From: a virus | IMG/VR virus record: IMGVR_UViG_3300026094_000027 | Coordinates: 1 to 29,331 of that record | Strand: one strand, 5' to 3' | Length of the DNA stretch: 29,331 nt | Shown: piece by piece, positions 6,397 through 26,340 of the stretch | Layout of the letters: every line of letters begins with the position of its first letter | Position numbering within the stretch: position 1 is the first letter of the stretch | The notes under the pieces: generated by a model | Told to the model about the DNA's origin: nothing | Database searches by the model: none | Seen by the model: only the letters and a program-made list of their open reading frames with translations | Translations under genes and position numbers: made by a program

Positions 6397-9300
6397 TTAT
6401 CTTAAAAAGTAATGGAATGCAAGCGGTATGCCTTTTACTGTCTTAGTATACTCGACATTTGCTCGTATATTTAGCGGATCTCCGCTTACTGTTGTTATTT
6501 GATCAGACCCTATGAATATATCACCTGCTGTTATGCTATTTACATTAAGCGATGCGCCACCGCCGCCGATCTGTGCTTCAATAAATGCTTTAATAGCTCT
6601 TTGTGTTGGAATAACAGAATCCGAGTTTGCACTAAAGAACGGATCAGTTGAAAATTCTTCAATTGATGCAGAATTACCTCCTAGACTTACTTCACCTAAT
6701 GTAAGCTCTTGCAGGCCTGCTAAGTTGAAAGCATCGGCACTAATAGAAGCTATACCTGTGGCCTGTTCTACTGAGAACAATGCGCCCACTCTAAAGTTAC
6801 CGTCTTGGTCTGTCGAAGTAAAGAATACTCTTCCGCCGTCTGATTCAGTTGTTTCTTTGTTCGGATCAGGCAAATATTCAGGATCATTGGGATAATTTGT
6901 TTCTTCAAAATTTCCTGTACCTATATCTAGAAAATCATGGCCAGTTAGTCTTACTTGAGAGTAACGAATTCTGAGTGATAACTCTTCTTCATCGTTCGGC
7001 GCTTCTTCTATAGTTAAACCAGGTGACAATCTAAAGAACGCAGTATACGATCCGTCATTTTCTCCCACAAATGACACAGTGCTTACAAGTTTAAAGACTT
7101 TGTCAGGAAGGTTATCGAAAATTACGTTAGAACCGTTAACTGGCCTTTGACTTAACCTTTTTACAGCGATACTATCAACAGCTTGGAAGAAATCTGCCTC
7201 ACCATTTGACTCTTCATCGTTGACCTCGAAAGATGCTTCGCTGTAACCTTCTCCTCTGTCCAAATAGGTAGGATTAGCTAGAGAACCTTTTCCTGTTCTT
7301 ACTTGGAAAACAACGTCAACAACATTATTAGGATCAGTGATCGTAATAGACGGCGAAGTATCATACCCAGATCCTGGCTCTAACAGTCTAACCTCGAACA
7401 CTTGCTCGTTAGATACACTTGCTCTACCTCGTGCTCTTGCACCTGCTCTAAAGTCTAAACCTGCACTAGTAGCACCGGCACCTAGAGCAAAAAATCTACC
7501 TGTTCTGTTCGGATTACCAAACTGGATTGCGTCATAATTTGTAGAAAGACCGGTTTCGGACTCCCATTCAATCCCAAACTCTGAGTAGAGAATTTCTGTT
7601 GCATCTGTTGTAACAGCAAACACGCCTTGACCATACGCAATTGATCTGGTAGTAGTTACTCCTGTGTCTATTAATTCGCTCCAGTTTTGTCCGTCTAGAC
7701 TATATGAAACGTCGCCTCCAGTAGTAATAGCAACAAATCTGCCATTGCCCCAGACAAGGTCTGTCCAATCTCCTGTTGGTAAGTTACTTCCAGGAGACCA
7801 AGTAACACCGTCTTCTGAATACACAGTATTTACTGTGCCTGACTCTATTGCAACAAATAACCCCTTACCGTACGAAAGAACATTATAACCAGTGTTCGGA
7901 AGTGCATCTGTAGTTATAGTCCAGTTTACGCCGCCGTCTACTGTAAATGCAACATCACGCGAATTATTTGATAATGCAACAAATCGATTATTGTCTACGC
8001 CTACATTTCCAAATGCAATGCGTTTTGCGCCTGTACTAGGTAATCCGGTAATACTAGATGCCCAATTTTGTGCGCCATCTGTTGAATAATTTACCACGCC
8101 AGTTTCGCTTATAATAACAACAGAGTCTGGCTTGAAAACAGAGGAGCCGTCGTCTAACAGCCCTGAAGCAATATCATTCCAGGTATTATTACTAGCTAGC
8201 GTTACCTCGTTCCAGTTATTTCCGTCTACTGAAGTATATGCCGTTGCTCCAGATGTGCGAACTGCAATAAAGATGCCTTTTTCTGCAACACCTTTAAATT
8301 CAAAATCTAGGATTTCTCCTGTCTCGTTGATAGAAAGCACAATAATAGTAATATCGTTAAGAGGAGATTCTCCATTTAAGTCTGTACCTGCAATTGTAAG
8401 TTCATCTAGCCTGTTATATTCACTGCCAACTGAATCTATTGCAAGATAATATTTAGAACCCACTCTTGTAACATCAAACGTAGCGCCCGTTCCAGAGCCT
8501 CCTGTTGGGGATAAAGCTGTATATAAGTCTGTAGTTTCTACATAATCAACCGCTGTATATTCATCTTGGGGAATTGTAAGCGCAGATGAAGTAACGGGAG
8601 GAGCAGAAAATTCTACCTTCGGCTCGATCCGATATGTCGAAGTTGAATTAGGTGCTACAATGTCAACGCCCGGAATAACATGCTCCCATCCAGGCGTTCC
8701 GTCATCTTTTACAACTTCAGCTAGTTTTGTGCCTGCATTATATGTATCGATTGTAGCGTACTGGCCAGTAGCTTCGCCTGCAAGAATGTAAATTTGCATC
8801 CCAGGGTACGCTCCGGATGGGTTTCCGTCTGTGGCTGCTAGAGATATGCTTGTTAATGTGCCTGATTGAGCAGTGTTTGATGCAACCAGATAGGCGCTGC
8901 CGCCGGCTTGGCCTTCATTGTTTGTAACAACTCTTGCTTGAATTACAGCATCGTCTCTAAACTCGTCTGCAACTATTTGAGCACCTATGCCTGGACCAAA
9001 TATGTCTATTTCTGCTTCTGTATAATTGTTTCCTGCGTGTTCATATTCGGCTGTAAGAATTTGATCGCCATCTGTAAAAACATTACTAATAGTGGCATTA
9101 AACTGTGTTCTATTGTCTACTACTGCAGTAACAGGCGTTTCTTCGGGATCAACACCTTCTGCAACAGCACCAAAAGTGCCATAAGAATTGTTACCGTTTG
9201 TGCCTCTTATTCTGCCTCCTGTTTCTGCAAGATATCCTACATGAGCATAATAAGAGAATACAGATACTAATTCTGCTCTGCCGTTGTTGGTAATCCAGGC

Positions 9301-12300
9301 TCCTATGCCGTCTGATATTACCTGCGTAAAGTCATTTGAAACAATAGAATCATTCCCGCCGTCGTGCAGCTCGCCGTCTATCTTTTGACCTATAGCAGCA
9401 AAACCAAATGTAGTAAGATTCTGCACATATGGCGAGCGTGCTGTGATCCATACTCTTTCGTCGGCAGGCCCCCAGCCCGGATCTAGTGATGCATAAGCGC
9501 CTGCTGTTGGTCTTCGTGTGCCGAATTCATTTCTAGCGCCGAGGTCTCCTTGAAGTCCGGCTACTGTGTGTAATCTAAGACCAGTGGCATTGCGCAGATA
9601 ATACATATCTTCTTCTTGCGAACCAATAATAGAGTTTGCATAATATCTAGATGATAATCTGTGTTTGTAGCTTGCCGGACGATATATTGTAAAGTCATCT
9701 ACACCTGCGTTACCAATATAATTTCTTTGCCATTTTGCCGGCCATATCATATCCCATTTGACACTGTCTATGTACTCTCTTACATCTCTAGTGCATATTC
9801 CTTTGTCATAATTATAAGCTTTCTCTACAGTAAATTCTCCTTCAAACGGATCAGTAATATCAAATTCCGATCCGCCTTCTTCTTCAGAAATTTTAAATTC
9901 TGTAGCACTTACAATATCATAGACATAGAAGGTTTGGTCGTTACCAAAACCGCCGAACCGAATAGGCATGTACAAGGAAAGCCAGTCAGTAGATAATATA
10001 GTGATTGTATTTGTAGCTGTGTTAACATTCGTTGCAGTGTCTTTGAAATAGTTATCCACAAAAGCTACTGCTTCTTCTGCTATAAAATCTTTATTCAATT
10101 CTAGTTGTCTTACAGCGTTGTAAACTTCTTGGTCTTCCGTTTGATAGTTACTGCCTTCGGACGCACTACCAAAAACAATATCGTCTAGCCATTCGTAGGT
10201 TTTGTTTATAGAATTTCTTGCAAACTCATATTCTGAGTCGAGAGGAACTTCCTGCAGTGTTCTTCTTTTAAGAAATTCAAAGTTTGCAAGGCTAGCTTCT
10301 TTCTGTTCTGCAAGAACTTTTTTCCCTGTCTGTCTTAAATAACTATAAGCCGAAACCATTGAAGCAAAATTGGTGTCTAGTCCAAGGTCATATTTTGCAG
10401 CATCTAATATATAACCTACATCTCTTTCGCACTTGGCTTCGTCGTATTCTAGATCGGGAAAATTTGTGTTTATAAAAGTAATTGCATCACTCTGTATTGA
10501 GGATTTTGCACTGTCAATTGCGTTTATAACAGTGTTAGCATCTGCATTGTCGACAGTTGGAAATGTTATAGATACAGTGTCTTCGCCTGATGTAATTGTG
10601 TTAATTATGTCTATAAAACGAGAGTCAATAATATCAGTTGAAGTATTTGTTCCTCCAACTCCTAAAATCTGTGTAAAATCAGTTTGAAAAGGAGATATTA
10701 TCTCGCTGCTTGATGCAACGTCTTTTGTAATATCATTTATGTAGTTGTATACTGAAATTAATTCGTCCTTCTCCGCTGAGGTAGATTGAAGAGTACCAAT
10801 TTCTACAATTGCCTCTGCAGCAGTTACACTCTGCCAATTACCCCCGTATGTCAAATCATACGAAATTGCATCAATAACATCTTCTAGCTCGCGTTTGAAT
10901 TGTGTTTTAGAAAATCTTATTTCTCTGTCTATAATAGAATCTTCAAGAAATGCAATTGCTTCTGCCTTAATAAATTCAATATTGATTCTAACTAGGTCTC
11001 TTGACTTGCCAATTTCTTCTGTTGTTAATTCATAAGATGGAGTAAATTTAGCTTCATTTTTTAGCCCAATTTTTTGATCGCTTAGTCGACGTATAGACCT
11101 AAATAGTTTTTCAATCTGCGGTGCAACCACTTCGGTTTCAGCATAAGGCCAATCTTGACTTTGAAGGACAGGATTTGGTTCAGTTGCCGAGACTGTTAGT
11201 CCTTCTACTATGTCTCCGACTACTTGCTCTATCCTTTCAAGTCCTTCAAAACTGTACCGAAAGTCTGATCTTGGAGTGAGCGTAGAATTGTTTTTTGATT
11301 GAGCTTCTATCCTTGTAGAGCGAAGCTCGTCGCCCATTATACAGCACAAGCGAGGAACAATTATAGGTAGAACTTCACTGTACCTACCTGTTGTTACTTT
11401 GATTAGTGTGTGTCTTTCCAGTTCTCTAGGCAATTTGTCTTCGTCTTGCTCGTCGATAGCAGATTTAATTATTTCGGATAGACTTTCTATGGTTTCAAAA
11501 ACTCCTTCCTCTGCATTTAATGTTGAATTTGTATATTCAATAACTTTTCTGCTTGAATTATCATCAAAGAGATCTTGGTAGTCTAAATCTAAGGGCTCTT
11601 GTTCTAATACTGGTTCAATAATTTCAAGAACATCGTTTACTATCTGTATCGTAATTGCTTTTTGACTTCTAGTATATTCTTTTCTCGAATCGTTGATATA
11701 TTCAAGAGCTTCTTTTCTTGATCTCACATTCCCGCCATGACTAATATCCCAAGCAAATGCATCTATCAATAATCCAATATCTCTATTATACTTTTCTGTA
11801 TCAAAGTTAAAATCGATACTGTACGGTTCGATATCGTTTTGAATTCCTAATTCAATTTTCGATAAAACCTGCCGCTGTATATAACTTCTATTCAATTCTA
11901 GCAACTTCTTTGCACTGGGATTTCGCGCGCCGTTTTCAATCTGTTGCGTTGCGTATCTTATGGATTTCCAAGGTCTGTCTTGTGTCTTACCGTAAATAGG
12001 GGCAGGAGAATTTTTACCTCCTTCACTTACATAGTAAATATCTGCAATCGACGCCGGGAATTCCCACTCCGGCAACTGCTGATCAGAAACTTGCAATATT
12101 TGTCCGTCTTCGCCTATTGGCAGCCTTACAGGAGCTGTACCAGAGTAATAAACCAAATCACCGGCTCTTGTAAGAACGCTCTGTTCAGAGCCAATAGCTA
12201 TAACACTCCAAACCTCTGTTGAATCTACAATGTCGGGAGAATTAACTCCGTCTTCTGCAATATGGTAAGCAGTTGCAACATAGGAGTTGTCTCCGAAGCG

Positions 12301-13341
12301 AACAACATCACCTTCGTAGTATTCTGCACCGTTTAACCACTGTGATCTCCAGTCAAAGCCCGAATTAAGTCTCTGCCAAAATTCTTCATTCGGTGGTTGT
12401 TGATCAGAGTGGTCTTTTACACAGCGATATGTGAACCCGCCTAGTCTTACAACTTCGCCTATCTTATATTCAATCTGAGAAGAATCTTCATTCCAGTCGC
12501 CTACAAACTTAAGGCCTTCTGAGAAAAGCTGCCATTCCGACGGAGAGGTAGAAGGAAATTCTCCTGAATTGTCTGAAATTGCGATATACTGGTTACCGCC
12601 ATACGTAACAACGTCACCTATTTGGTAGTTTCCGTTTCCGGACCATTCTGATTCATATTGGAATCCTTCTACAAACTTTTCCCAATTAGCGATATCGTTT
12701 TCGAAATTATCTGTAGAAGTGTGTGCTTGCAGAGAAATCCAGAGGCTGCCGCCGCGTTTAACTACATCGTTCTTTTTATACCTATACTGCGATTGCCAAT
12801 CATTTTCATATTCAAAGCCTTCGTTGAACAGTTCCCAGTCTGACTGGTTTTCTTCCAGTCCTAGCTCATCTGTTGCAGCAGAAATATGATCGTTAATACA
12901 AATATAGCTACTGCCACCATACTTTACAAGATCGTTAATCTTGTAATTGAAATCTGTCTGCCAGTCTCCTTTCCAGTCAGATGCCTCTGCAAAAACATCC
13001 CATTTGTCTTGGTCTGCTTCTAATCCTTCCAAATTAGTTTCTGCTGCGGTGTGAGGAGTGTTAGCAATATAAACGCGGCCGCCGTACTTTACAATATCAT
13101 TATCTACATAGCCTCGACCCGATTCCCATTCACCTTGCCATGTCTGTCCTGTCGCTATTAGATTCCATTTTGTAGGAACTTGAGAAAGATCTGTAAAAAA
13201 ATCGCTATCACTGGTATGGCCTATAACACAGATATAGGTTTTGCCGCCAAATCTTACAACATCGTCTTTGTAATATTCATTTTCAGGAGTCCATTCTCCT
13301 TTCCATACAAATCTTATTCTACCTAATTTAAATTCAGCCAT
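6397..13341 (-). CDS. Giant modular tail-fibre/adhesin protein, 2314 aa
   Basis: Residues 11-387 hold seven carbohydrate-binding-like repeats (W..EW...Y..GD.V.YGG..Y.). A linker with RAGDLVYYSG follows, then YYVSEGGKNSPAPI opens a beta-helix near residue 437. Between about 470 and 1210 lies a mostly helical insert with four copies of a motif like RDxGxxIDAxxYDLxxGGN. The helix resumes with LDPGWGPADERVWI near 1284 and RIRGTNGNNSYGTFG near 1375. Six Asp-box blades (S.DG..W) occupy about 1689-1962, then GSGYD-type turns. The C-terminus has TSTDQDGNFRVGALF near 2170 and SDSVIPTQRAIKAFI near 2233. A late promoter box and GGAG precede the ATG. It is a paralogue of the 1819-aa protein and is probably a long host-recognition fibre or baseplate appendage. 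Enzyme activity is not evident. Confidence 0.8.
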   Translation of the reverse strand: MAEFKLGRIRFVWKGEWTPENEYYKDDVVRFGGKTYICVIGHTSDSDFFTDLSQVPTKWNLIATGQTWQGEWESGRGYVDNDIVKYGGRVYIANTPHTAAETNLEGLEADQDKWDVFAEASDWKGDWQTDFNYKINDLVKYGGSSYICINDHISAATDELGLEENQSDWELFNEGFEYENDWQSQYRYKKNDVVKRGGSLWISLQAHTSTDNFENDIANWEKFVEGFQYESEWSGNGNYQIGDVVTYGGNQYIAISDNSGEFPSTSPSEWQLFSEGLKFVGDWNEDSSQIEYKIGEVVRLGGFTYRCVKDHSDQQPPNEEFWQRLNSGFDWRSQWLNGAEYYEGDVVRFGDNSYVATAYHIAEDGVNSPDIVDSTEVWSVIAIGSEQSVLTRAGDLVYYSGTAPVRLPIGEDGQILQVSDQQLPEWEFPASIADIYYVSEGGKNSPAPIYGKTQDRPWKSIRYATQQIENGARNPSAKKLLELNRSYIQRQVLSKIELGIQNDIEPYSIDFNFDTEKYNRDIGLLIDAFAWDISHGGNVRSRKEALEYINDSRKEYTRSQKAITIQIVNDVLEIIEPVLEQEPLDLDYQDLFDDNSSRKVIEYTNSTLNAEEGVFETIESLSEIIKSAIDEQDEDKLPRELERHTLIKVTTGRYSEVLPIIVPRLCCIMGDELRSTRIEAQSKNNSTLTPRSDFRYSFEGLERIEQVVGDIVEGLTVSATEPNPVLQSQDWPYAETEVVAPQIEKLFRSIRRLSDQKIGLKNEAKFTPSYELTTEEIGKSRDLVRINIEFIKAEAIAFLEDSIIDREIRFSKTQFKRELEDVIDAISYDLTYGGNWQSVTAAEAIVEIGTLQSTSAEKDELISVYNYINDITKDVASSSEIISPFQTDFTQILGVGGTNTSTDIIDSRFIDIINTITSGEDTVSITFPTVDNADANTVINAIDSAKSSIQSDAITFINTNFPDLEYDEAKCERDVGYILDAAKYDLGLDTNFASMVSAYSYLRQTGKKVLAEQKEASLANFEFLKRRTLQEVPLDSEYEFARNSINKTYEWLDDIVFGSASEGSNYQTEDQEVYNAVRQLELNKDFIAEEAVAFVDNYFKDTATNVNTATNTITILSTDWLSLYMPIRFGGFGNDQTFYVYDIVSATEFKISEEEGGSEFDITDPFEGEFTVEKAYNYDKGICTRDVREYIDSVKWDMIWPAKWQRNYIGNAGVDDFTIYRPASYKHRLSSRYYANSIIGSQEEDMYYLRNATGLRLHTVAGLQGDLGARNEFGTRRPTAGAYASLDPGWGPADERVWITARSPYVQNLTTFGFAAIGQKIDGELHDGGNDSIVSNDFTQVISDGIGAWITNNGRAELVSVFSYYAHVGYLAETGGRIRGTNGNNSYGTFGAVAEGVDPEETPVTAVVDNRTQFNATISNVFTDGDQILTAEYEHAGNNYTEAEIDIFGPGIGAQIVADEFRDDAVIQARVVTNNEGQAGGSAYLVASNTAQSGTLTSISLAATDGNPSGAYPGMQIYILAGEATGQYATIDTYNAGTKLAEVVKDDGTPGWEHVIPGVDIVAPNSTSTYRIEPKVEFSAPPVTSSALTIPQDEYTAVDYVETTDLYTALSPTGGSGTGATFDVTRVGSKYYLAIDSVGSEYNRLDELTIAGTDLNGESPLNDITIIVLSINETGEILDFEFKGVAEKGIFIAVRTSGATAYTSVDGNNWNEVTLASNNTWNDIASGLLDDGSSVFKPDSVVIISETGVVNYSTDGAQNWASSITGLPSTGAKRIAFGNVGVDNNRFVALSNNSRDVAFTVDGGVNWTITTDALPNTGYNVLSYGKGLFVAIESGTVNTVYSEDGVTWSPGSNLPTGDWTDLVWGNGRFVAITTGGDVSYSLDGQNWSELIDTGVTTTRSIAYGQGVFAVTTDATEILYSEFGIEWESETGLSTNYDAIQFGNPNRTGRFFALGAGATSAGLDFRAGARARGRASVSNEQVFEVRLLEPGSGYDTSPSITITDPNNVVDVVFQVRTGKGSLANPTYLDRGEGYSEASFEVNDEESNGEADFFQAVDSIAVKRLSQRPVNGSNVIFDNLPDKVFKLVSTVSFVGENDGSYTAFFRLSPGLTIEEAPNDEEELSLRIRYSQVRLTGHDFLDIGTGNFEETNYPNDPEYLPDPNKETTESDGGRVFFTSTDQDGNFRVGALFSVEQATGIASISADAFNLAGLQELTLGEVSLGGNSASIEEFSTDPFFSANSDSVIPTQRAIKAFIEAQIGGGGASLNVNSITAGDIFIGSDQITTVSGDPLNIRANVEYTKTVKGIPLAFHYFLR
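7455..8277 (-). repeat. Six Asp-box propeller blades in the 2314-aa fibre
   Basis: Six Asp-box-like sequences occur at about 44-residue spacing: SVDGNNW, STDGAQNW, TVDGGVNW, SEDGVTW, SLDGQNW and SEFGIEW. Each is preceded by a strand of the kind GxFVAI or NRFVAL. This is the layout of a BNR/sialidase-type beta-propeller. Sialidase active-site residues cannot be assigned, so a binding rather than cleaving role is more likely. Confidence 0.65.
9700..11790 (-). repeat. Four helical repeats in the 2314-aa fibre
   Basis: The motif (C/Y)xRDxxxxIDAxxYDL(x)xGGN or a close variant appears near residues 518 (YNRDIGLLIDAFAWDISHGG), 820 (IDAISYDLTYGGN), 978 (CERDVGYILDAAKYDL) and 1188 (CTRDVREYIDSVKWDM). 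They are separated by long predicted helices. The 1819-aa paralogue has only one short trace of it. Similar motifs recur in cyanophage fibres, from memory. Confidence 0.5.
12181..13311 (-). repeat. Seven carbohydrate-binding-like modules at the N-terminus of the 2314-aa fibre
   Basis: Units start near residues 11, 67, 122, 178, 229, 279 and 331 and are 50-56 residues long. Each has an initial W..(E/D/Q)W, a Y...D(V/I)V strand, an (F/Y)GG..Y(I/V) strand and a W near the end. This pattern recalls chitin-binding type 3 (CBM5/12) modules. Aromatic residues that would stack on sugars are kept in most units. Similarity to CBM families is by pattern only. Confidence 0.6.
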
Positions 13342-13368: not shown

Positions 13369-16300
13369 TTAAGTTGACTCGTCGTCTATGTTCCGTAAAA
13401 ACAGTTGCTGAGATATCATAGTTCCGCTCACTCCTTGGAACTGATTTACATCAGCGTTTATAATAAAACTATTAACTCCGACGGTATCGATGACGTTGTT
13501 AGGTCCTCCTAGTGTAACAAGTCCGGACTGTACCTGATTGGTTTCTAGATTTTCGCCACCAACTGATAGTCTGGATGCTAGAAAAGACGAAATTGCTCGT
13601 TGAGTAGGAATAATATTATCTGAGTCTGCAGAAAAATTGGAGTCTGTAGAAAATTCTCTAACTACAGTGCCAGAACCGCCTAGACGTATTCCTCCTAGTG
13701 CAAGCTCTGATAAGCCTTCTAAATCAAAAAACTCTGCTGATATAGTAACTACACCTGTTGCCTGGTCAACCGCAAATAAGTCGCCGCCTCTAAAATTTCC
13801 GTCTTGGTCTGTACTTACATAAAAAACACGTCCGCCGTTGAATTCTCTAACTTCATTTTCAGGCGAAGCTACAAAAAAGTTGGCGTCTGCATAAATTTCT
13901 GGATAGTTAGTTTGTTCAAAATTTCCTGTACCTATATCTAGATAGTCATGGTTTGTAACTCTTGCTTGACTGTATACTTCTCTAAGCTCAACGTTTGTAC
14001 CGCTTTGTAGGTTATATTCATTTTCAAGAGACGGATTTATTTGAAATTCAATAAGCCTTAAATTTATATTTGAAGGGTCAGGTCCTCGATCAATGATTCT
14101 AGAACCTTCAAACAGCAACAAATCTTCTCCGTTGTCGTCGAAGATACCGTCTATAATAATTTGAACTCCTACACCTGGAATAGTTTCCACACCTCTTACA
14201 ACTAGAGTATTATCTTCCGGAATAATATCAGCAAAACCGTCTCCTGATATAATAATCTGAGACGAGTTAGTTTGATAACCGCCTCCTCTGTTGATAAAAT
14301 CAGGTTGAGCCAAAACACCGGTACCTAATCGTGTTTGAGACTCAGCTTCGATTACAAACTGAGAATCTATAATATCTACAGTCAAGTCTTCTGAATCCGA
14401 ATATCCGCTGCCCGGATCCCATATTTTCAATCGCTCAATACTGCCTGTTTGAACATCTGCTCGCAGTTTAGCTTTTTTACCAGTTTTAATTATACTAATT
14501 GCATCAAATTTTTCATTGTCTGCAAACACAAACCACTCAGGCGAGCCGTTGAACGACGCAAAGCTAAACGCTGTCCAGTCTCTTGTCTCTGAAATTATTT
14601 GTTTTACCCAATGAAGACCAGTCTCTGTAGTAAAAACAAAATTTGTAAGACCTTCAGAATCTCGTGCTATTGCTAGAAATACACCTTGATAATATTTTAG
14701 TGATACAAATTCAGTTGTTGCATTTGGAAGAGGAGCAGGGTCACTTTCGTACCAAGTGACACCGTCAAAGCTGTACAAAGTAACTCCATCTGTATTTAAG
14801 AGAAGATATCTGTTATCTCCATAGGCCAGCCCTGCAGTTTCATTTAAAAATTCTGCTCCTTTATCTACCAGTGCTTCGTTGTGTCTAGTCCAAGTTACGC
14901 CGTCAGGCGAAGTTGCAGTTGCTCTGTCTGAACTAGACACTGCTAGAAATTGTCCTTTTCCGTATACAATATGTGTATAGGAAGATATTGTAGAATCACC
15001 TGTACTATCGCTTACAGTGTCTTCAGGAATGTCAGTTTCTTGCCATATTTCTCCGTCGTTACTATAAAGCGCATTATTTGAATTATCAGAAATTATTACA
15101 TATTTTCCTTTACCGTCATAAGCAGCATCTACCCAGTTTTCTTTAAGTGGCAGAGGTCTTTCTTCCCAATCGATCCCGTTCAAACTAAAACCGATACGGT
15201 CATCTCCACCAGCAATTGCAACAAATCTGTCGTCAGCGTCGATAATTCTATTGTAATCTCCAACAAAACTCAGTAGATCTTCTTGCCAATCTCTTCCGTT
15301 GTCAGAGTATAGGACAAAGTTAGGCTCTGCAATAGCAACTAGCCTGCCGCCTCGGCCTTTCCCTCGTATATTGAGGTCTAATATACTGCTTGAGCTGTCA
15401 TCAGATACCTGTGTAACTGTGATGGTAACATCGTTGTCAGGCGAGACACCGTCCAGGGCGCTTCCTAAAATTACAAAGCTGTCTCCGACTGAATATCCGG
15501 CACCACCGTCTTGAATTGATACAGAATATTCTCGTGCCTTTCTTGTAATATCTACCAAGGCACCTTCTGGTACTAAATCTGGGTCTGTAAATGATCCTGC
15601 ATTTAGTTGTAAATTTTCAAACACTTGAGTAGTATTACTAAAAACTGTATCTATTACTGTTCTGCCTGTGGGCAAGTTTGCTGTAGTGTTAGAAAATCCT
15701 GGATGACTAACTTCTACTCTTGGTTCAATTCTATATTGGGTAGATGTTTGAAATCCTTCTACTAATGGCGTTCCGGGAATTAAATGGTCCCATCCTAATT
15801 CGTTGTCGCTTTCTCGTCTAATAGTTGCACGTTTTCTCGGAGGATCATAAGCAGCAATATAGCCGTATTGTCCGGTTCCTGCTCCGTTAATTATTATCAC
15901 TCTCTGTCCGATTAATAATGTGTCAACCTGAGTTTCTTCTGTACCCGACAAAAGTATCGTGCTAGTTGCATCTTCTGTGGTTTGAGCAAATCCCTGTTTT
16001 ACTAGATAATTAGCGCCGCCGGGTTGTCCAGAACCTTGGGTGTTGATAATCCTTTCTTCAAATACAGCTCCGTCTCTGAAATCCCAATATTCGACTTCTG
16101 CAAAGCTGCCAGCGCCAATAACTTCTGCCTCTGCTTGTGTGTAGTTTTCGCCTGCATTTGAGTACTCAAACACCAAAATTTCATCCGCAAACCCTCCGGT
16201 AAATGCATCTTCTACCTGCGCTTCGTTGTTTCTATTAAAAACATTTACAATTTGCGGAATTTCTGTGGGATCGTTTCCGTCGGTGACAGTTCCGAATCTT

Positions 16301-18828
16301 CCGTAAGAATTATTTCCGTTTGTTGCTCTTATAATGCCTCCTTGATTCGCTAGATACCCTACAGCACAATAGTAAGTAAAAACAGAAACAAGTTCTGTTC
16401 TTGCACCGTCTGATACCCATACACCTATACCATCAGAAAGAACTTGTGTAAAGTCATTTGAAACCATAGAACGGTTCCCACCATTGTGCAGGGTGCCGTC
16501 TATTCTCTTACCTATGCAGCCCGTGCCTGTGGTTGTGACTCCCTGAATGTAGGGAGAACGATTTACAATCCAAGTTCTTTCGTCGTCTGGACCCCAACCG
16601 GGATCCAGAGACACATAAGCACCACCGGTTACTAGAGGATACTCTCTCAAAGAGCCGTCAAAAATAACTTCACCTTTTAGACCTCCTGTTGTGAGCTGTC
16701 TAATTCCTGTAGTATCTCTGACATAAAACAAATTTTTATCTTCAGATCCTTGAACTGAATTTACATATCTTTCTGCTGCTAAAATAGTTCTATGATTCCC
16801 GCTAAATTGTAAATCATCTTTTATGCCTCTCAGCAAACTGTAAACATCGTTTTTTATTCTAACAAAGTCAAAATCCTGTGAAGTAAACTCGTTGCTAAGT
16901 CGTGCCCAGACTTCTCCTGCGACGAATTCTCTATTTTCCCATAGAGCCTTGCCGGCGTCTATTTCGTTTTGATTGGTATTTTCTATATTAGAACCTTGAA
17001 TTACAGGATCGGAAAAACCAATAGACAATCTCGATCCTATATAATTTTCGAAAACATCAAAATAAGGCAGTATAGCGTTAAGACCAGATAGATCGGTAGT
17101 TGTTGTATCCACTTTTTGTGTAGTAGGGTTTCCTTCGGTACGACTTATCCTTTCGTTTTTTACGATCGGCAACAGAAACGTAGAAAAATCATTCAAATAA
17201 TATTGAAGAAATTGAAAGTCATCCTGATACTCGGGTATAGGAGTATTTGGCTCAACTCTTGTTGTTCTTAACTCTGCTCCTACAACTGCGCAGCCTGCAG
17301 GCACAATAATAGGAGCAATTTCCTCATATCTACCAGCGGTCACATTTATTGTAACATTTGATAGCGGTTCGAAATTATCTTCAGCATACTGTGCTGCAAA
17401 CTTTATACTTTTAAAGGGGTCTTGCGGTGTTAATCCTCTTCTAAAAGAATCATCATCTGTGCCGCTTTCTGCAACATATAAATTTTGAGACGTGAGAATT
17501 CTAGAGCGCCAAAAAATATCAAGATCTTCTGATACGCTTAATTGTTGTCCCGTGTTTCCTATTGGAACACTAATGTCGCCCTCGGATGAATCGTTGCCTG
17601 CAAGCGTTTTGTTAAGTCCATAGGAAATTAGGTCTCCGCGCTGTGCAAGAGCCCCTGGCTGCCCTGCTTGAATCACTAGGTCCCAGTAATCAAAAATATT
17701 GCCGTTCTCGCCTGGAAAATTTGTTTCATCGGCAAAATGATCTATATTGGCTCGGTAAGCCGAGCCAAGAAAGTATACTATGTTTCCTACTGAATAGTTT
17801 ACACCCGGAGACCATCCATTGGCCCATGCTGATCCGGGAACTAATAGATCCCAGAGATTGCCATCAAGATAGTCAAGAACACTCGAACTAGTATCTAGAA
17901 GCTCGATGTTTTCTCTTGCAACGTATAGTTGTCCTCCGCGCTGAACAACATCGCCTGTTCTGTAAGGAACTCCTAATCTCCAATTTCCTCTAAAATTATA
18001 GTTTTCCGCAAATTTTGTCCAAACCGGATTTTCTTCTTCGCTTGTTGGTAATGTGTCTTGGTTTGGAAAATTAGCGTAGTATAGGAAACCCCCTAGTCTT
18101 ACAATATCTCCTGTTTGATACTGCGTGGATGAGTTCCACTCTCCGTCAAACCGAAAGCCAGGAAACTCTATTGCAAATTTTGATATATCAAAATTCTGTG
18201 TAGATGTGTGAGTTTCTAGGCAGCGGAAAAGCGAAGATCCAAATTTAACAATGTCGTTTTTTCTAAATTCTGTGTCTGCCTGCCAAATGCTTCTATATTC
18301 AATGCCTTCAAAATACACAATCCATTTATCGATATCATTTTCAAACTCGCTATCTGATTTATGAGATTCAATACATCTATAGACTATACCATTGTATTTT
18401 ACCAAAACTCCGTCAGAATAATCGGTTGAACTAGACCAATTATTTTGATACCCGGACCCTAACGCAAATATTTCCCAATTTGACCTATCTTCTACAAAAT
18501 TTGTACTTACATGAGCTGTTGTACAGATATACACAGTGCCTTTATAAGATACAGATTCACTCAGATTATATTCCGTTGATTCCTGCCATTCACCTCTAAA
18601 GCTAACGCTTTCGGTCATCAATATCCATTTAGGAGCAGGTTGCGGCGGTTCACTCTCAGGCACAACAGCATTAAGATCAGACTGAAAAGTGCTGCTAGAA
18701 GTGTGTCCTACAATACATACATAGGTTTTTCCTGATAACCCTACTATATCATCTCGGATATATTCTTCGCTAGGACTCCACTCTCCTTTCCAGTTGTATC
18801 TAAATCTTTCTAGTTTAAATTCCGTCAT
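13369..18828 (-). CDS. Giant modular tail-fibre/adhesin protein, 1819 aa
   Basis: A paralogue of the 2314-aa protein with the same order of parts. Seven carbohydrate-binding-like modules occupy residues 11-390. A QRGDLISYGL linker follows, then a beta-helix starting near residue 447 (NLYVAESGTDDDS), with INVTAGRYEEIAPIIVPAG and LDPGWGPDDERTWI. Six Asp-box blades lie at about 1162-1446, followed by GSGYSDSEDLTVDI turns. The C-terminus has STDQDGNFRGGDLFAVDQAT and SDNIIPTQRAISSFLASRL. The N-terminal 50 residues are nearly identical in pattern to those of the paralogue (MTEFKLERFRYNWKGEW versus MAEFKLGRIRFVWKGEW). The ATG overlaps the stop of the 151-aa gene by 14 bases, and a weak GAGAG precedes it. 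Role: probable host-surface binding appendage. Confidence 0.8.
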   Translation of the reverse strand: MTEFKLERFRYNWKGEWSPSEEYIRDDIVGLSGKTYVCIVGHTSSSTFQSDLNAVVPESEPPQPAPKWILMTESVSFRGEWQESTEYNLSESVSYKGTVYICTTAHVSTNFVEDRSNWEIFALGSGYQNNWSSSTDYSDGVLVKYNGIVYRCIESHKSDSEFENDIDKWIVYFEGIEYRSIWQADTEFRKNDIVKFGSSLFRCLETHTSTQNFDISKFAIEFPGFRFDGEWNSSTQYQTGDIVRLGGFLYYANFPNQDTLPTSEEENPVWTKFAENYNFRGNWRLGVPYRTGDVVQRGGQLYVARENIELLDTSSSVLDYLDGNLWDLLVPGSAWANGWSPGVNYSVGNIVYFLGSAYRANIDHFADETNFPGENGNIFDYWDLVIQAGQPGALAQRGDLISYGLNKTLAGNDSSEGDISVPIGNTGQQLSVSEDLDIFWRSRILTSQNLYVAESGTDDDSFRRGLTPQDPFKSIKFAAQYAEDNFEPLSNVTINVTAGRYEEIAPIIVPAGCAVVGAELRTTRVEPNTPIPEYQDDFQFLQYYLNDFSTFLLPIVKNERISRTEGNPTTQKVDTTTTDLSGLNAILPYFDVFENYIGSRLSIGFSDPVIQGSNIENTNQNEIDAGKALWENREFVAGEVWARLSNEFTSQDFDFVRIKNDVYSLLRGIKDDLQFSGNHRTILAAERYVNSVQGSEDKNLFYVRDTTGIRQLTTGGLKGEVIFDGSLREYPLVTGGAYVSLDPGWGPDDERTWIVNRSPYIQGVTTTGTGCIGKRIDGTLHNGGNRSMVSNDFTQVLSDGIGVWVSDGARTELVSVFTYYCAVGYLANQGGIIRATNGNNSYGRFGTVTDGNDPTEIPQIVNVFNRNNEAQVEDAFTGGFADEILVFEYSNAGENYTQAEAEVIGAGSFAEVEYWDFRDGAVFEERIINTQGSGQPGGANYLVKQGFAQTTEDATSTILLSGTEETQVDTLLIGQRVIIINGAGTGQYGYIAAYDPPRKRATIRRESDNELGWDHLIPGTPLVEGFQTSTQYRIEPRVEVSHPGFSNTTANLPTGRTVIDTVFSNTTQVFENLQLNAGSFTDPDLVPEGALVDITRKAREYSVSIQDGGAGYSVGDSFVILGSALDGVSPDNDVTITVTQVSDDSSSSILDLNIRGKGRGGRLVAIAEPNFVLYSDNGRDWQEDLLSFVGDYNRIIDADDRFVAIAGGDDRIGFSLNGIDWEERPLPLKENWVDAAYDGKGKYVIISDNSNNALYSNDGEIWQETDIPEDTVSDSTGDSTISSYTHIVYGKGQFLAVSSSDRATATSPDGVTWTRHNEALVDKGAEFLNETAGLAYGDNRYLLLNTDGVTLYSFDGVTWYESDPAPLPNATTEFVSLKYYQGVFLAIARDSEGLTNFVFTTETGLHWVKQIISETRDWTAFSFASFNGSPEWFVFADNEKFDAISIIKTGKKAKLRADVQTGSIERLKIWDPGSGYSDSEDLTVDIIDSQFVIEAESQTRLGTGVLAQPDFINRGGGYQTNSSQIIISGDGFADIIPEDNTLVVRGVETIPGVGVQIIIDGIFDDNGEDLLLFEGSRIIDRGPDPSNINLRLIEFQINPSLENEYNLQSGTNVELREVYSQARVTNHDYLDIGTGNFEQTNYPEIYADANFFVASPENEVREFNGGRVFYVSTDQDGNFRGGDLFAVDQATGVVTISAEFFDLEGLSELALGGIRLGGSGTVVREFSTDSNFSADSDNIIPTQRAISSFLASRLSVGGENLETNQVQSGLVTLGGPNNVIDTVGVNSFIINADVNQFQGVSGTMISQQLFLRNIDDEST
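14490..15345 (-). repeat. Six Asp-box propeller blades in the 1819-aa fibre
   Basis: Asp-box-like sequences SDNGRDW, SLNGIDW, SNDGEIW, SPDGVTW, SFDGVTW and TETGLHW recur at 40-50-residue spacing, each after a strand such as RFVAIAG or QFLAVSS. The last copy is degenerate. Layout fits a six-bladed BNR propeller like that of the 2314-aa protein. Confidence 0.6.
17659..18798 (-). repeat. Seven carbohydrate-binding-like modules at the N-terminus of the 1819-aa fibre
   Basis: Units begin near residues 11, 77, 127, 178, 227, 279 and 335. The first unit is longer by a Pro-rich stretch (PESEPPQPAPKW). Residue pattern W..EW/W..(Y/F)...D.V..GG..Y matches the paralogue unit by unit. Confidence 0.6.
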
Positions 18829-19603: not shown

Positions 19604-22600
19604 CTATCCAAATTGAATCACGGTTGAAAACGCAATATCTTCCGCGTCGCCTGGAGATATATTTTCTTCAGAACCTGCAACAGATATCCAATCACTGCCG
19701 TCATAGATTTCAACACGACCGTCATCTGTATTGAAACGAGTTAGGCCAATTTCCGTAAAATTTTCTGGCGGTCTTGTTAGGTTAGTTCCTACCGGAATGA
19801 CAAGACCGCTAGTACCTTCAAATTTTACATATCCATTATCTGTGTTTTCAAATACTGTAATACCATCCTGCACAGTATTTGTGATTTTGTTTTCCTTTAT
19901 TGCTAGATCATCGATAACAACAGAGCCTGAACCTTGTGCTGTAAGTTCAAGGTCAGTGTTAGATGTAATAGTACTTATTACATTGCCATTTATCTGTATA
20001 TCGTCTATTATTATTTTGTCAGAAGTAATACCGGTTTGATCAATAAGTGTCGAGATATATCCGTCTGTTGTAAATCTAATAATGCTGTCGTTTGCACCCG
20101 GCGTGAGTTCTGCAGTCACAGAAGTATCACCGTCGATGTCAACAACACCATTTAGTTGTATCCAGTCCGTGCCGTTAAATCCTTCGAATCTATTCAGACT
20201 GGTGTTAAAACGAATTTGCCCTGCCAACGGCGTTTCTGGCCTATCACTAGTACTTCCTACTGGTATCCTAATACTTCCAGTAGAATCTAGTACGAACACC
20301 TCCGACCCTGACTGTAAAACAAAATCGTTTGGGGTTGAGATAGTGTTATCTGAAACTTCAAACTCTTGAAAAAATACAGAGCCGGTTCCTGAAGTACGTA
20401 ATTCTAGATCTGCATTTGATTCAGTTGTTTGGATATAATTATCTGAAATTTCGATATCAGAAACTAGTATCGTATTTACATAGGAATTTTGCCAACGTTC
20501 TGTAATTGTTCCGAGTGAATATGTTGAGTCTTGTGAAGGAATTATATCAGAATCTATATCAGCAACGAATTCAATTGTGTCTGAATTTTTATCACCAATT
20601 GTGATATTTCCGCCTATAGTCACATCTCCGGTAACATCTAAATCGCCTGTAATATTCACAGAGTTTTCAAGATTAATTTCTTTAGAAAATGCATCAAGGT
20701 TTATTGCGCCTGACAAACTTTCTACTGTGTTTCCAGATATTCTAATGTTGCCTGTTTCGACCTTTGTTGCATCAATAGTAGTACTATCAATACCGTCTGA
20801 AAAGGTAAAAGCCTGTGTACTGTCTACAGAAAAATTTGCGCTTTGGAAAGTAATGTCACCGGTTTCTTGATTGATAGCAAACAAGTCGCCAACCCTAAAA
20901 TCACCTTCATGATCTACAGATGAAAAACGAACCTTTGCTCTATTAAGTTCTATAAATTCATTTGTTTGGATTACTGCCTCGGGATCATTGCTTGACTCTT
21001 TGCCGCTGCCGATGTAGGCAACGTTATGGCCGATCGCGTATATAATTACGCCAGCACCGTTGCCTACAATTCCTTGATTTCCGTAAACCGAAGCTGAAGA
21101 AATTATTCTTACTTCTGCGCCGAAATCTGTAAAGTCAACTAAAGTAAACTCGGTTGCTGTTGCTCCGCTAGAAAACCTTATATCTTGAGAAAGAATAACA
21201 TCGTCTTTAAAGGTCTGAGTGCCATCCTCTCCGTCAAATCGCGCCATAAGCACTGTTTGCTCTGTTGTAATCAACTCAAACTGTGGGCCGCCGCTCGGAG
21301 GCGTAATTGCCTCCCCATTAACTATTCTCACGTCGTCTACGTTGCCTTGGAAGAAGGATTGTGATCCGTCAAACAGCGCGCCTATTACTAGAGGTTTCGA
21401 TGTGCCGTAATCAGTGTTATCTGTCCACGATCCGATGTCTGTGCCGTTGAGATAAAGTGTTCCTATAGACCCTGAACGTGTGTATGCAACGTGATTCCAT
21501 TCATTCAATGACAAATCTGCATTACCAGTTATTTGATACGCACCTTCCACGTAAACTTCTGGCGTCAAACCATCTATATTAATTGAAACTGCGTTATCGT
21601 TGATTTGCCCTGCGCGGAAATCTAAAAGTCTCCTTACACCTGAAGTTACTGTAGGATAAAACCATCCTTCTACAGTAAAGTCGTCGGTGCCGAATCCAAA
21701 ATCATCCGAAGAATTAAGAGAGACATAGTCTCCGTTACCATCAAGCAACAAAGAAGATGCACCATGTTTTATAATAGAGGTGTCTAACTGTGCGTCCCCG
21801 TTGGCTGTTAGAGTTTTACCTAGTCTTTCGTCGGCTTCTTCAAATCCTAACTGCTTTCCTGCAACATAGATTTTTCCGTCTAAGTCTATTCTTTGTATAA
21901 TAGCTGATTCTAGCAGAGTAGCACCGTCAATGTCGTAATATTCGATAGCATCGCCTTCGGACACTGATCCTTGAATGTTTGCTATTCTTAGCGCAGTTTC
22001 TCCGTTGCCTTTAAGACCAGACGAACCGTCTACTGCATATATAGATCTTTTTGCAAAATATGTAAAACAGCTAAGCCATTCAGCTCTTACACCGTTAGTT
22101 AATGTTACAGCGTCTACGCCCGGAGTAATAAAGGTAACAGTATGAAATAGTCCGCTGGCTTCTTTACTATTTGCTGTTGCAGCGGAGCCGTCTAATAACA
22201 CACCTTTACCTGCATCACCTTTGTCGTAACCTCTAGGATCTTCTTGAGATGTTACAGATCCTTTAGTAATCACGGTTATGTTTTTTATATAAGGAGATCT
22301 AGACAATACTGTAAATCCTGATGCATACCTAAAAGCGTAACCTGTATCATCTGCGGCATTATAAAGAAAATTCTGCACAGTAAGATCTTCTACAGTAGTT
22401 TCCCCGTTTAAAAGAAAACAGTCGTTTGTATTTGTAGCAGCAGTAGGGATAATGGTGACTGATCTTAAACTATGACCTTTTACAGTAACTCCTTGAGGAA
22501 TTTCTAAAGGAAATTGTTCTTCATATTCGCCAGGAAATACAAAAACTGTGTCTCCTGCTTCGGCAACAGTTAAAGCTTGTTTAATACTAGAATAAGGATC

Positions 22601-23332
22601 TTGTATATGGTCGCCTGAATTAGTATCGTCGCCGTTTTCTGCAACATAATATATGTTACCTTGTCTTAAGGTTAAGTCTATTCCGTCTACATCAAGTCCT
22701 GCAGAATTTATTGTAGAAGCGACTAGATTATTTGTATAAATATCAGACCATTCTTTCCCGCCTGTGGTCGGATCCGAGCCTAAATTGTAGGTGTCTGTTT
22801 CGACAGGTATGATATCAGAAGCTACTTCTGCGTTAAAAGTAACATTATCTGTGTCCTCGTCGCCGATTGTAATGTTGCCTTCAGCAGTAATATTACCAGA
22901 TACAAACAAATTGCCGTCTATATCTAGATCAGAGTAGACTGCTACCGAGCCAGTGCCGTTTGCTCTAAATTCAAGATCCGCATTAGAATCTTGTATCTCT
23001 ATACGGTTGCCTTCTAAGCGGATAGAATCTATTTCTAGTTTGCTGAGACTTACTACAGAGTCTAGTGTTGAAAGATTAAGGTAAGGCGCACTAGACGTTA
23101 TTGTATCACCCTGTATTGTGATATCGCCTATGTCAGCTTTTGTAACAACTTCAAGTGCGTTTGATTGTGTAGTGCCATTGACGTCTAATTCATGCTGAGG
23201 GTTGCTATTCCTAACACCAATGCGCTGGTTATTAACATCTAGATATAGTAGGTCAGTCTCAAAGGCTAAATCAATACCATTACGTATCAAATTAGACTTT
23301 AAGAGCGGCCCTGAAATACGACCAACAGCCAT
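19604..23332 (-). CDS. Tail-fibre protein with inserted LamG-type lectin domain, 1242 aa
   Basis: The N-terminus (GRISGPLLKSNLIRNGIDLA, LYLDVNNQRIGV) matches the 954-aa protein closely. Two fibre segments follow with the pattern SDIIP...YNLG near residues 172 and 945. A right-handed beta-helix begins at YYVAENGDD (residue 228) and includes FPGEYEEQFPLEIP and FITPGVDAVTLTNGVRAEWL. After YAVDGSSG at 432-439 there is an insert of about 300 residues containing a LamG/concanavalin-type domain at about 515-685. The beta-helix then resumes with GAEVRIISSASVYGN. FSSVDHEGDFRVGDLF is near 805. AAGGAG precedes the ATG. A late box lies about 115 bases upstream. Probable host-binding fibre. Confidence 0.8.
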   Translation of the reverse strand: MAVGRISGPLLKSNLIRNGIDLAFETDLLYLDVNNQRIGVRNSNPQHELDVNGTTQSNALEVVTKADIGDITIQGDTITSSAPYLNLSTLDSVVSLSKLEIDSIRLEGNRIEIQDSNADLEFRANGTGSVAVYSDLDIDGNLFVSGNITAEGNITIGDEDTDNVTFNAEVASDIIPVETDTYNLGSDPTTGGKEWSDIYTNNLVASTINSAGLDVDGIDLTLRQGNIYYVAENGDDTNSGDHIQDPYSSIKQALTVAEAGDTVFVFPGEYEEQFPLEIPQGVTVKGHSLRSVTIIPTAATNTNDCFLLNGETTVEDLTVQNFLYNAADDTGYAFRYASGFTVLSRSPYIKNITVITKGSVTSQEDPRGYDKGDAGKGVLLDGSAATANSKEASGLFHTVTFITPGVDAVTLTNGVRAEWLSCFTYFAKRSIYAVDGSSGLKGNGETALRIANIQGSVSEGDAIEYYDIDGATLLESAIIQRIDLDGKIYVAGKQLGFEEADERLGKTLTANGDAQLDTSIIKHGASSLLLDGNGDYVSLNSSDDFGFGTDDFTVEGWFYPTVTSGVRRLLDFRAGQINDNAVSINIDGLTPEVYVEGAYQITGNADLSLNEWNHVAYTRSGSIGTLYLNGTDIGSWTDNTDYGTSKPLVIGALFDGSQSFFQGNVDDVRIVNGEAITPPSGGPQFELITTEQTVLMARFDGEDGTQTFKDDVILSQDIRFSSGATATEFTLVDFTDFGAEVRIISSASVYGNQGIVGNGAGVIIYAIGHNVAYIGSGKESSNDPEAVIQTNEFIELNRAKVRFSSVDHEGDFRVGDLFAINQETGDITFQSANFSVDSTQAFTFSDGIDSTTIDATKVETGNIRISGNTVESLSGAINLDAFSKEINLENSVNITGDLDVTGDVTIGGNITIGDKNSDTIEFVADIDSDIIPSQDSTYSLGTITERWQNSYVNTILVSDIEISDNYIQTTESNADLELRTSGTGSVFFQEFEVSDNTISTPNDFVLQSGSEVFVLDSTGSIRIPVGSTSDRPETPLAGQIRFNTSLNRFEGFNGTDWIQLNGVVDIDGDTSVTAELTPGANDSIIRFTTDGYISTLIDQTGITSDKIIIDDIQINGNVISTITSNTDLELTAQGSGSVVIDDLAIKENKITNTVQDGITVFENTDNGYVKFEGTSGLVIPVGTNLTRPPENFTEIGLTRFNTDDGRVEIYDGSDWISVAGSEENISPGDAEDIAFSTVIQFG
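21278..21790 (-). other. LamG/concanavalin-like lectin domain inside the 1242-aa fibre
   Basis: Residues about 515-685 read as a Laminin_G_3-type fold: SLLLDGNGDYVSL, DDFTVEGWFYP, RRLLDFRAG, LNEWNHVAYTRSGSIGTLYLNG and FFQGNVDDVRIVNGEA. The order GDYV, FTVEGWF, WNHVAYTR, LYLNG and VDDVRI is the usual one for this family, which binds sugars or proteins, often with Ca2+. The 954-aa paralogue lacks it at the same place. Confidence 0.8.
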
Positions 23333-23475: not shown

Positions 23476-26340
23476 TCAGCCAAACATAAGACTGTATTCG
23501 AGAATTAGATTATCAAATTCTTCCTCAGTTACAAACTGCGCTACTCCTGAAGCATCAAGGAAGACAGAACCGTCCCATACTTCTACAATTTTTGCATCAG
23601 TATTCCACCGTGTTTCGCCGATCTCCGGTGTCTCTGCCCTTTCTGCTTCAGACCCGCTAGGTAAAACAAAGCCATTAGTGCCTGTAATTTTTTGATAACC
23701 AAACCCTGTGATTGCAAATGAAAGTTTCTTGTCACTTGCAAAAAGCTTTATTTTATTATCTACTATTGCAATATTGCCTGTCCTTATTTCTCCGACACCG
23801 TTTCTTTGAAGTTCTAGGTCTGAATTCGATGCATTTGTTTGTATTCTATTGTTATCTATCAATACGTCGTCAATCTGTAAACTGTTAGTGTCGACCCCAA
23901 AATCGTTAATTACGCCTATTAACTCATTGTCTACTGTAAACAATATCGAGTTTTGTGCAGGATCTGCAACCATTGTAGTTTCTCTATCGTCTGAATACAC
24001 TCCGCCAAATGCAATTGTTGCATTTTGAAAACCTTCGAAAACACTATCATCGTCGTTAAACCTTATGTTACCTAAACTAGATAGGTCTGTTGGTTCTAGA
24101 GGAATTTGTTCAGTAGTGCCGATCGGAAGTCTTAACGATTTAGTAGACTCTACAATTGCTCCGTTCTTTGACGATAGAATAAAATCGCCAGAATTGCTCT
24201 CAAGATAGTTGCTTCCGAAATGTATATTGTCTAGTGCAACAGCCCCGTTGCCGCTTGTTCTAAACTCTAACGAAGAGTTTGACTCAACAGAAGTAATTGT
24301 GTTGTTATTAATTGTTAACGAAGGTAACTCTATTTTGTCAAGTCCGGCAAATTGCCATCTTTTTGTATTACTGCCTAGATTAAATTTTGAGTCTTGAGTA
24401 GGAGCAAAATTAGAATCAATAGATGAAATAAAACTTACACTATCACTTGTTGCGTCACCAAAGAAAACAATTCTACTATCTGTAGCCAAATTTCCTGTAA
24501 TAGCAAGATCATTGTCTATACTAGTGTTGTTTTTAAGATTAATTTGTGCAGGAGCATTTATGTTAATTGGGCCAACAAAACTCTGAATAAGATTATTGCT
24601 GACTTGCATATTTCCTGTAAAATAGTCGCTGTACGTAAAAAATGTTTCATTGCTGTTGTTTTCTATTCTTAAATTTGTTAGTTCGTCGCCGCTTAAATTT
24701 GCATTTGATATAGAAGTTGTTCCTTTTTCGAAATCGGCAAAGAAAATATCACCTACTCGATATGTGCCAACATGATCTACAGAAGTAAAATAAATTTTTC
24801 CATTGTTTAATTCTATTACTTCTTGTGCTTGAACACTTTGGGTCTTGTCATTATTGGTACTTTTACCTAATCCTACATACGCAAAGTTATGCTGAATAAG
24901 ATACATCAAACAGTTGTCACCGTCTGCAACTGCACCAAAATTGCCGTAGATATTTGCGCTTGCAATTGCTCTTATTTCAGCTCCAAATTTTATTGTAGAG
25001 CCGTCTGCAGTAGTTCTTCCTTCGCTTCCGTTAACAGCATACAGTCCTCGATTTGCAAAATATGTAAAAGAAGATAGCCACTCTACTCTTACACCGTTTG
25101 TCATTGTAATCGCATCTACACCTGGTGTAATAAATGTACAAGATTGAAATAGCATAGAAGCTTCGTCGCTTAAACCGTCAAGTGCTGCGCCGTCTATTAA
25201 TGCACCTTGTCCTGCATCACCGCTTTCGAACCCTCTAGGATCGGTAGGAGAGGTTTCTGTGCCTTTAGTGATAACGGATACATTTTTTATGTATGGCGAT
25301 CTATTTTGTATAATTGCACCGGGTTTAAATCTAAAGGCATAGCCTTTGTCTGCCTGAGAATAAAAGTCTCTTATTGTGAGATTCTCTATTGTTGTATCAC
25401 CGTCTAACAGAAAAACATCTTCAAATTCACTTGAGGTATCAGGAGATATATTTATACCTCTTAAACTAGTACCTAATACAGACACAAAATTAGGCACTTC
25501 TAAAGGAAATTGTTCTTCATATTCACCTGGAAAGACATAGATAGACACAGGACCTGATGTAGACGCATCTGCTGCTTCTAGAGCGCGTCTTATCGTTTTA
25601 AAAGGTAATTGAAGATGATCTCCAGAGCTATCGTCGTTGCCGTTCGTTGCAACAAAAAAAACATTTCCTTGCTTGAGATTGAAATTTATTTGCCCGCTTA
25701 CTAGTTCAGAGGTCGAAACTGACTGTCCGTTTACAAATTTAGTAAATGTGTTATTCCATCTTTGATTTGGTCTGCCTAAACTAGATGTATTTGTTTCGTC
25801 TGGGATTAAATCAGAATTTATTTCAGAGTCGAAATCTACCGTATCGCCACTTTCGTTGCCAATAATAATCTTTCCGTCAACCGTGATATTTTTTGGCGTG
25901 AAAAAATCGCCAAAAACTTTGGTGTTTGATTGGAAAATAGTCTTGCCGATTCCGCTAGGGGTTAAGATTACAGAGCTGTTTGACAATTCTGTAAAAATAG
26001 TGTTATCTTTGATAAGAATAGTATCATTAGATAGTCTGCCAAAACGCACAGCAGTTTCGGCAACTAAATTGATATTACCAGATAGTTTTTGTATTTTTGA
26101 ATCGGAGATGTTGTAAGCCGAAACAGTTAATTGGTTAGCAACAAGACTATCTGTTTTAAAATGTCCTGGTATCTGTAATTCTTTTGTAGGAGAATCCGTG
26201 TCAACGCCTATTCGATGGTTGTTTACATCTAAAAATAAAAGTGGCTCAGTTTGTTGCTGATTAGAAAAAGATAGATCGTTACCTTGCCTCTCTAAATTAG
26301 CAAATAATAATGGGCCTGATATTCTACCTATCTGTGCCAT
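23476..26340 (-). CDS. Tail-fibre protein, 954 aa (paralogue of the 1242-aa fibre)
   Basis: Collinear with the 1242-aa protein but without its LamG insert. The N-terminus has GRISGPLLFANLERQGNDL and LLFLDVNNHRIGVDT. A fibre segment with DLIPDETNTSSLG is near residue 177 and a second near 650. The beta-helix starts with FFVATNGNDDSSG (residue 228), has FPGEYEEQFPLEVP (270-283) and FITPGVDAITMTNGVRVEWL (403-422), and passes through YAVNGSEG directly to GAEIRAIASANIYGN. FTSVDHVGTYRVGDIF is at 518-533. The C-terminal part repeats the GSG/LELQRNGVG strand pattern and ends in Phe-Gly like its paralogue. A late box and GAGGAAA precede the ATG. Probable fibre for receptor binding. Confidence 0.8.
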   Translation of the reverse strand: MAQIGRISGPLLFANLERQGNDLSFSNQQQTEPLLFLDVNNHRIGVDTDSPTKELQIPGHFKTDSLVANQLTVSAYNISDSKIQKLSGNINLVAETAVRFGRLSNDTILIKDNTIFTELSNSSVILTPSGIGKTIFQSNTKVFGDFFTPKNITVDGKIIIGNESGDTVDFDSEINSDLIPDETNTSSLGRPNQRWNNTFTKFVNGQSVSTSELVSGQINFNLKQGNVFFVATNGNDDSSGDHLQLPFKTIRRALEAADASTSGPVSIYVFPGEYEEQFPLEVPNFVSVLGTSLRGINISPDTSSEFEDVFLLDGDTTIENLTIRDFYSQADKGYAFRFKPGAIIQNRSPYIKNVSVITKGTETSPTDPRGFESGDAGQGALIDGAALDGLSDEASMLFQSCTFITPGVDAITMTNGVRVEWLSSFTYFANRGLYAVNGSEGRTTADGSTIKFGAEIRAIASANIYGNFGAVADGDNCLMYLIQHNFAYVGLGKSTNNDKTQSVQAQEVIELNNGKIYFTSVDHVGTYRVGDIFFADFEKGTTSISNANLSGDELTNLRIENNSNETFFTYSDYFTGNMQVSNNLIQSFVGPININAPAQINLKNNTSIDNDLAITGNLATDSRIVFFGDATSDSVSFISSIDSNFAPTQDSKFNLGSNTKRWQFAGLDKIELPSLTINNNTITSVESNSSLEFRTSGNGAVALDNIHFGSNYLESNSGDFILSSKNGAIVESTKSLRLPIGTTEQIPLEPTDLSSLGNIRFNDDDSVFEGFQNATIAFGGVYSDDRETTMVADPAQNSILFTVDNELIGVINDFGVDTNSLQIDDVLIDNNRIQTNASNSDLELQRNGVGEIRTGNIAIVDNKIKLFASDKKLSFAITGFGYQKITGTNGFVLPSGSEAERAETPEIGETRWNTDAKIVEVWDGSVFLDASGVAQFVTEEEFDNLILEYSLMFG

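Follow-up and report, generated by a model that had tools for sequence, protein, structure and literature searches.

Two phage tailspike depolymerases are described in which a small domain interrupts the beta-helix, namely a six-stranded beta-barrel of about 87 residues in LKA1gp49 (PMC5701251) and a beta-barrel domain in KP34gp57 (PMC10653864). For pelagimyophages and cyanomyophages, the sections of PMC7029224 drawn on here report concanavalin A, YHYH, and other carbohydrate-binding proteins within the structural operon or host recognition cluster; these sections give a domain list, from which nested or site-specific insertion is absent. In the open-access literature on LamG insertions in phage fibers, we found no description of the nested arrangement reported below.

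The window analyzed is a viral fragment of 29331 bases, in which two paralogous genes lie in tandem on the minus strand. The downstream gene (19604..23332) encodes the long copy, a 1242-aa beta-helical tail- or baseplate-associated protein recognized by its open reading frame, its match to phrog_13163, and its inserted module and LamG domain. The upstream gene (23476..26340) encodes the short copy of 954 aa, recognized by its open reading frame and its identity to the long copy; here the site is empty and a Pfam search returned no LamG match. BLASTP aligns the two proteins end to end in two blocks, with 43% identity over the N-terminal half (E = 4e-116) and 37% over the C-terminal half (E = 2e-90); collinearity is broken only by a single large stretch of the 1242-aa protein that remains unmatched. 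Between the flanking beta-helix cores, the gap measures 298 residues (437-734) in the long copy versus 12 in the short. The original prediction that the two fibers are collinear except for about 300 residues, with a LamG domain in the larger protein that its paralogue lacks, thus held.

Residues 214-913 of the long copy match positions 231-946 of the 976-position phrog_13163 profile ("baseplate wedge subunit"; E = 5.5e-189), a match that spans the helix, the insert, and the C-core. The "baseplate wedge" label of phrog_13163 proteins is a name transferred by annotation; T4 Gp7 is absent from pelagimyophages and cyanomyophages according to the cited sections of PMC7029224. The setting is T4-like, as the window encodes the gp15 tail sheath stabilizer and gp23 was found in all 12 long relatives examined. 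The long copy is thus placed as a tail protein of a T4-like phage. The photosynthesis gene psbA, used as a marker for cyanophages, was found in 0 of 12 long relatives. The likeness to the phages of PMC7029224, within the sections cited, lies in their being T4-like and marine and in having several structural proteins with carbohydrate-binding domains. Two long fiber-like proteins are also encoded in the window, one of 1819 aa (13369-18828) with six stretches of CBM_5_12 (carbohydrate-binding module family 5/12) and one of 2314 aa (6397-13341) with five.

The insert of the long copy can be divided on the minus strand as follows. The upstream half of the beta-helix, or N-core (residues 214-436; 22025..22693), ends in ...FTYFAKRSIYAVDG and was delimited by an HMM from A1 and by gap analysis, with AlphaFold pLDDT mostly above 90. 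It is followed by the first part of a beta-module (residues 437-498; 21839..22024), which comprises predicted strands 1-4 and aligns with relatives that carry the module only. The LamG/concanavalin A-like domain and its linkers occupy residues of about 499-712 (21197..21838, boundaries approximate), a stretch matched by Pfam PF13385 and missing from the module-only relatives. The second part of the module (residues 713-734; 21131..21196), defined by the alignment of relatives and containing predicted strands 5-6, ends in QDIRFSSGATATEFTLVDFT. The downstream half of the helix, or C-core (residues 735-847; 20792..21130), was placed by the relatives' alignment and gap analysis. In the short copy, the empty site is the 12-residue linker between the two cores (residues 439-450; 24991..25026, minus strand), also located by gap analysis. 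The motif GAE(V/I)RII had been proposed as the right flank of both proteins; the C-core of the long copy does contain GAEVRII, but the short copy reads GAEIRAI.

Pfam PF13385 (Laminin_G_3) matches residues 531-673 of the long copy (window 21314-21742) with E = 7.6e-23 and a score of 81.8 bits (cutoff 27.6), covering model positions 1-143 of 151 and agreeing with the earlier placement of LamG at 21278-21790 (residues 515-685). The predicted gain of some 300 residues was right in size and incomplete in content, as only about 205 of the approximately 298 inserted residues are LamG and the remainder is a second domain, the beta-module, split around it. The module contributes about 62 residues before LamG (GETALRIANIQGSV...IEYYDIDGATLLESAIIQRIDLDGKIYVAGK) and about 22 after it. 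With six predicted strands and about 85-100 aa, it interrupts the beta-helix and holds LamG between strands 4 and 5. AlphaFold models residues 214-847 of the window protein with a pLDDT of 90.0 (about 86-98 in the LamG domain) and a module-only relative with 89.3, and in both models the DSSP strings, from which strand order was taken, give the same six strands around the site. Module-only relatives align with the long copy on either side of LamG. As read from sequence, the insert is two nested domains, with LamG inside a beta-module that is itself inside a beta-helix turn.

Compared with the insertion domains of LKA1gp49 and KP34gp57, the module is alike in position and in size (about 87-100 aa), the folds being compared by description; a search of profile A3 against the PDB returned no tailspike insertion domain at E≤1. 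Unlike those domains, the module hosts a nested LamG, its presence varies between paralogues, and a tandem copy is empty. Its recursion and its changing occupancy, together with the tandem copy that stays empty, set it apart from the tailspike insertions. Relative to PF13385 at large, the window domain is a full-length match above the cutoff that differs by lying within a second inserted domain; some of its relatives have PF13385 nested in itself. The cyanophage DUF1565 proteins annotated as "baseplate wedge" (P-HM1 PHM1_095, MED4-213, ACG-2014f; phrog_13163) clearly belong to the same family, with the same helix flanks and LamG at the same turn. They have longer C-terminal parts than the window protein (P-HM1, about 2425 aa), and in P-HM1 the module holds about 50 more residues. 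ACG-2014f differs in having LamG in both copies, and the DSL-LC03 phage in having the module only.

Scans of viral contigs yielded at least 585 relatives, of which the best were read (scanned loci carry L-numbers). For the proposed comparison of the site across related phages, 236 distinct regions contained both flanks; their gap sizes fall into discrete classes, although the relatives were picked by similarity and are non-independent. The site is empty in 81 of the 236 regions, measures about 75-110 aa in 57, holds one LamG in a gap of about 295-305 aa in 86, and holds a nested LamG in a gap of 501-512 aa in 9; the remainder are P-HM1 at 367 aa (n = 1) and two odd short gaps. The 75-110 aa class resolves into two clusters, one of 42 regions with the beta-module, a state seen in DSL-LC03 and many environmental relatives, and one of 15 with an unrelated module bearing the motif YPRxxDP, which occurs in short copies. 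For example, an unrelated module (TFTCAMDGH...YPRPSDP...) of about 110 aa occupies the same turn in the short copies of L072, L080, L083, and L094, the turn being empty in near relatives such as L057 and L085. A search for other lectin types at this point, suggested as a check, found no other lectin fold, only this unrelated module in some short copies. The site in the short copy of L075 (3216-7190) is filled by yet another insert, of about 73 aa, and the Laminin_G_3 match of this copy lies away from the site, at residues 826-963.

Both sites could be read at 101 two-copy loci. The downstream copy is filled with LamG or the module in every one of them. The upstream copy has LamG at the site only in cyanophage ACG-2014f; in L186 and L189 it has the module. 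Relatives with LamG in both copies had been named as the case that would point to loss from the 954-aa protein; that case exists, in this single phage.

The recursion extends one level further in some relatives. In L093, the LamG profile HMM matches in the order 3-137, 3-200, and 130-205, which indicates that one complete LamG lies within another. This form was found on ten contigs at 89-100% identity, and we rejected an assembly artifact as the source of the double domain because ten contigs carry it. A similar form is present in L236. L179 has its inner LamG close to the beginning of the outer one, a different entry point from that in L093, indicating that the LamG-in-LamG form arose at least twice.

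Whether the module and LamG were inserted or lost was assessed with trees built on the insert-free helix. The polarity comes from an outgroup family of distant paralogues, including the 1819-aa protein of the window, in which the homologous turn (FTYYCAVGYLANQGGIIRATNGNNSYGRF; 16294..16380, minus strand) is free of an insert. Copies bearing the module or LamG are separated from empty copies by a single bipartition with support of 99/93 (ten empty rows), which falls to 71 in a larger quick tree. In AU tests, neither a single origin of the module (p-AU 0.50) nor monophyly of the empty copies as a derived clade (p-AU 0.29) was rejected. With the outgroup empty, both rootings need one gain and zero losses, and insertion of the module and LamG is therefore favored over loss, although not proven. 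The converse scenario, a clean deletion from the short copy of a module and LamG already present before the two paralogues diverged, gains something from the filled upstream copies of ACG-2014f, L186, and L189, from losses of LamG from the module that look real in some lineages (L092/L103), and from a root that is uncertain, being weak on a long outgroup branch. We nonetheless regard such a loss as improbable, since it demands an extra gain before the duplication, the turn is empty in the outgroup paralogues, the filled copies form one bipartition against the empty ones, and the empty sites share no common module remnant. The same insertion is found in the isolate cyanophages P-HM1, P-HM2, MED4-213, and ACG-2014f. 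Of the proposed insertion event in this fiber, the direction is thus the favored one, whereas its scope has to be revised, as the insertion is, on these comparisons, old, not unique to the window phage, and made of two nested insertions.

Within the filled copies, the state of LamG changed six times or more, and well-supported branches force three to four of these changes. Mean pairwise identity is 45% for LamG, 53% for the module, and 67% for the helix flanks. Between closely related loci, for instance L098/L101, nucleotide identity drops from about 93% to 57-71% across LamG and returns to about 83% after it; pairs without such a drop also exist (L049/L051, L061/L091), and further lineages conserve LamG as well as they do the scaffold. 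A synonymous-site test in the close group showed no clear excess in LamG over the C-core, with third positions too diverged, so accelerated amino-acid change explains the data there as well as allele replacement does, and we dropped a pure allele swap as the explanation for this group. The trees of LamG and scaffold conflict for the window clade. Its LamG groups with those of L011/L012/L017 and others, and its helix with L025/L041/L038 and module-only rows. The helix data reject the LamG-tree grouping (p-AU 0.001) and the LamG data reject the helix grouping (p 0.041), for groups that were chosen after the trees were seen. This conflict suggests exchange of LamG.

Profile searches with LamG matched an S-layer LamG (4qvs, 1.4e-13), the carbohydrate-binding domain of AbnA (5hon, 2.2e-4), and laminin LG, and Foldseek returned pentraxins and AbnA domain 4. 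AlphaFold, Foldseek, and the profile matches agree on a jelly-roll fold like that of solved PF13385 members. Going by fold only, LamG most likely binds glycans and has an accessory role in host recognition. An altered binding of the fiber through LamG is plausible in view of these lectin and carbohydrate-binding matches, the faster divergence relative to the scaffold, and the gain, loss, or exchange of the domain. LamG/ConA-like folds also serve many non-lectin roles, and the domain could instead be an assembly element, acting as a spacer, a contact to a neighboring fiber, or a cap. The invariant LamG residues W612, H614, E555, and D666 resemble the structural signature of the family, and in phage A-1(L) the insertion domain of a wedge protein holds a fiber (PMC10966104). 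A purely structural role seems doubtful, if still worth serious consideration, because a contact needed for assembly would not usually change in presence or diverge faster than the scaffold, and because the short copy has no LamG. Another reading takes the protein as a tailspike-type, glycan-degrading enzyme, in which the module and LamG form or deepen a substrate groove, as in LKA1gp49 and KP34gp57. An insertion of six strands and similar size breaks the helix in both tailspikes (residues 284-370 of LKA1gp49 and 103-203 of KP34gp57), and Foldseek matches our helix to polysaccharide lyases and tailspikes. These matches are, however, at the level of fold, with about 10-12% identity; the same helix is kept in empty copies without the module, and no sequence relation of the module to the two insertion domains was found. 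We give an enzymatic role only a small chance.

We favor, with a probability of roughly 0.6, the explanation that one beta-helix turn was filled stepwise and that LamG is an exchangeable glycan-binding accessory unit on a conserved scaffold. In the long-copy lineage, the helix turn would first have been entered by a beta-module of about 85-100 aa with six predicted strands, the tandem short copy keeping the ancestral empty turn. LamG would then have entered the module loop between strands 4 and 5, and in some lineages a second LamG the first. We propose that the domains enter at surface loops, so that the helix can stay intact on both sides. LamG would project from the helix, bind a host-surface glycan, and serve as an accessory unit for receptor binding or adhesion that can be exchanged. 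Architecture and occupancy states are read from the sequence, and the trees support the order of events and the gain, loss, or exchange of LamG; we infer that LamG binds glycans, is exposed at the surface of the virion, and influences host recognition.

The site appears to be a reused place for adding lectins, which are probably sugar-binding. A bolder version, to which we assign even odds, holds that a single turn serves as a recursive docking site (module in helix, LamG in module, and, at least twice independently, LamG in LamG) with exchanged LamG alleles and a tandem copy kept empty. Were this true, it would constitute a natural scheme for tuning the type and number of lectins. That phage fibers are built from modules is well known, but it is rare to see the steps side by side. 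Here, every intermediate (empty, module, module plus LamG, and LamG in LamG) occurs at one homologous site that evidently tolerates a folded domain within a beta-helix, and most genomes also hold an internal control copy beside the filled one. This makes it possible to test directly in what order the domains were gained, what an insertion costs, and what the lectin does.

Other turns of this beta-helix also hold inserts, of about 37 to 186 aa, near profile positions of about 113 and 150, in L176 (7505-11278), L179 (785-4210), L180 (539-4210), L200 (367-4209), L204 (2-4201), and L211 (750-4238); those of L200 and L204 gave no Pfam match above the cutoff. The long copy of L018 (9648-12207) is split across several open frames, perhaps by a frameshift in the sequence or assembly. 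Finally, a related LamG lies in unrelated flanks within giant structural proteins, thousands of residues long, of P-SSM4, Syn33, and S-RIM8 (L022, L023, and L024), indicating that these phages use the domain in more than one of their structural proteins.
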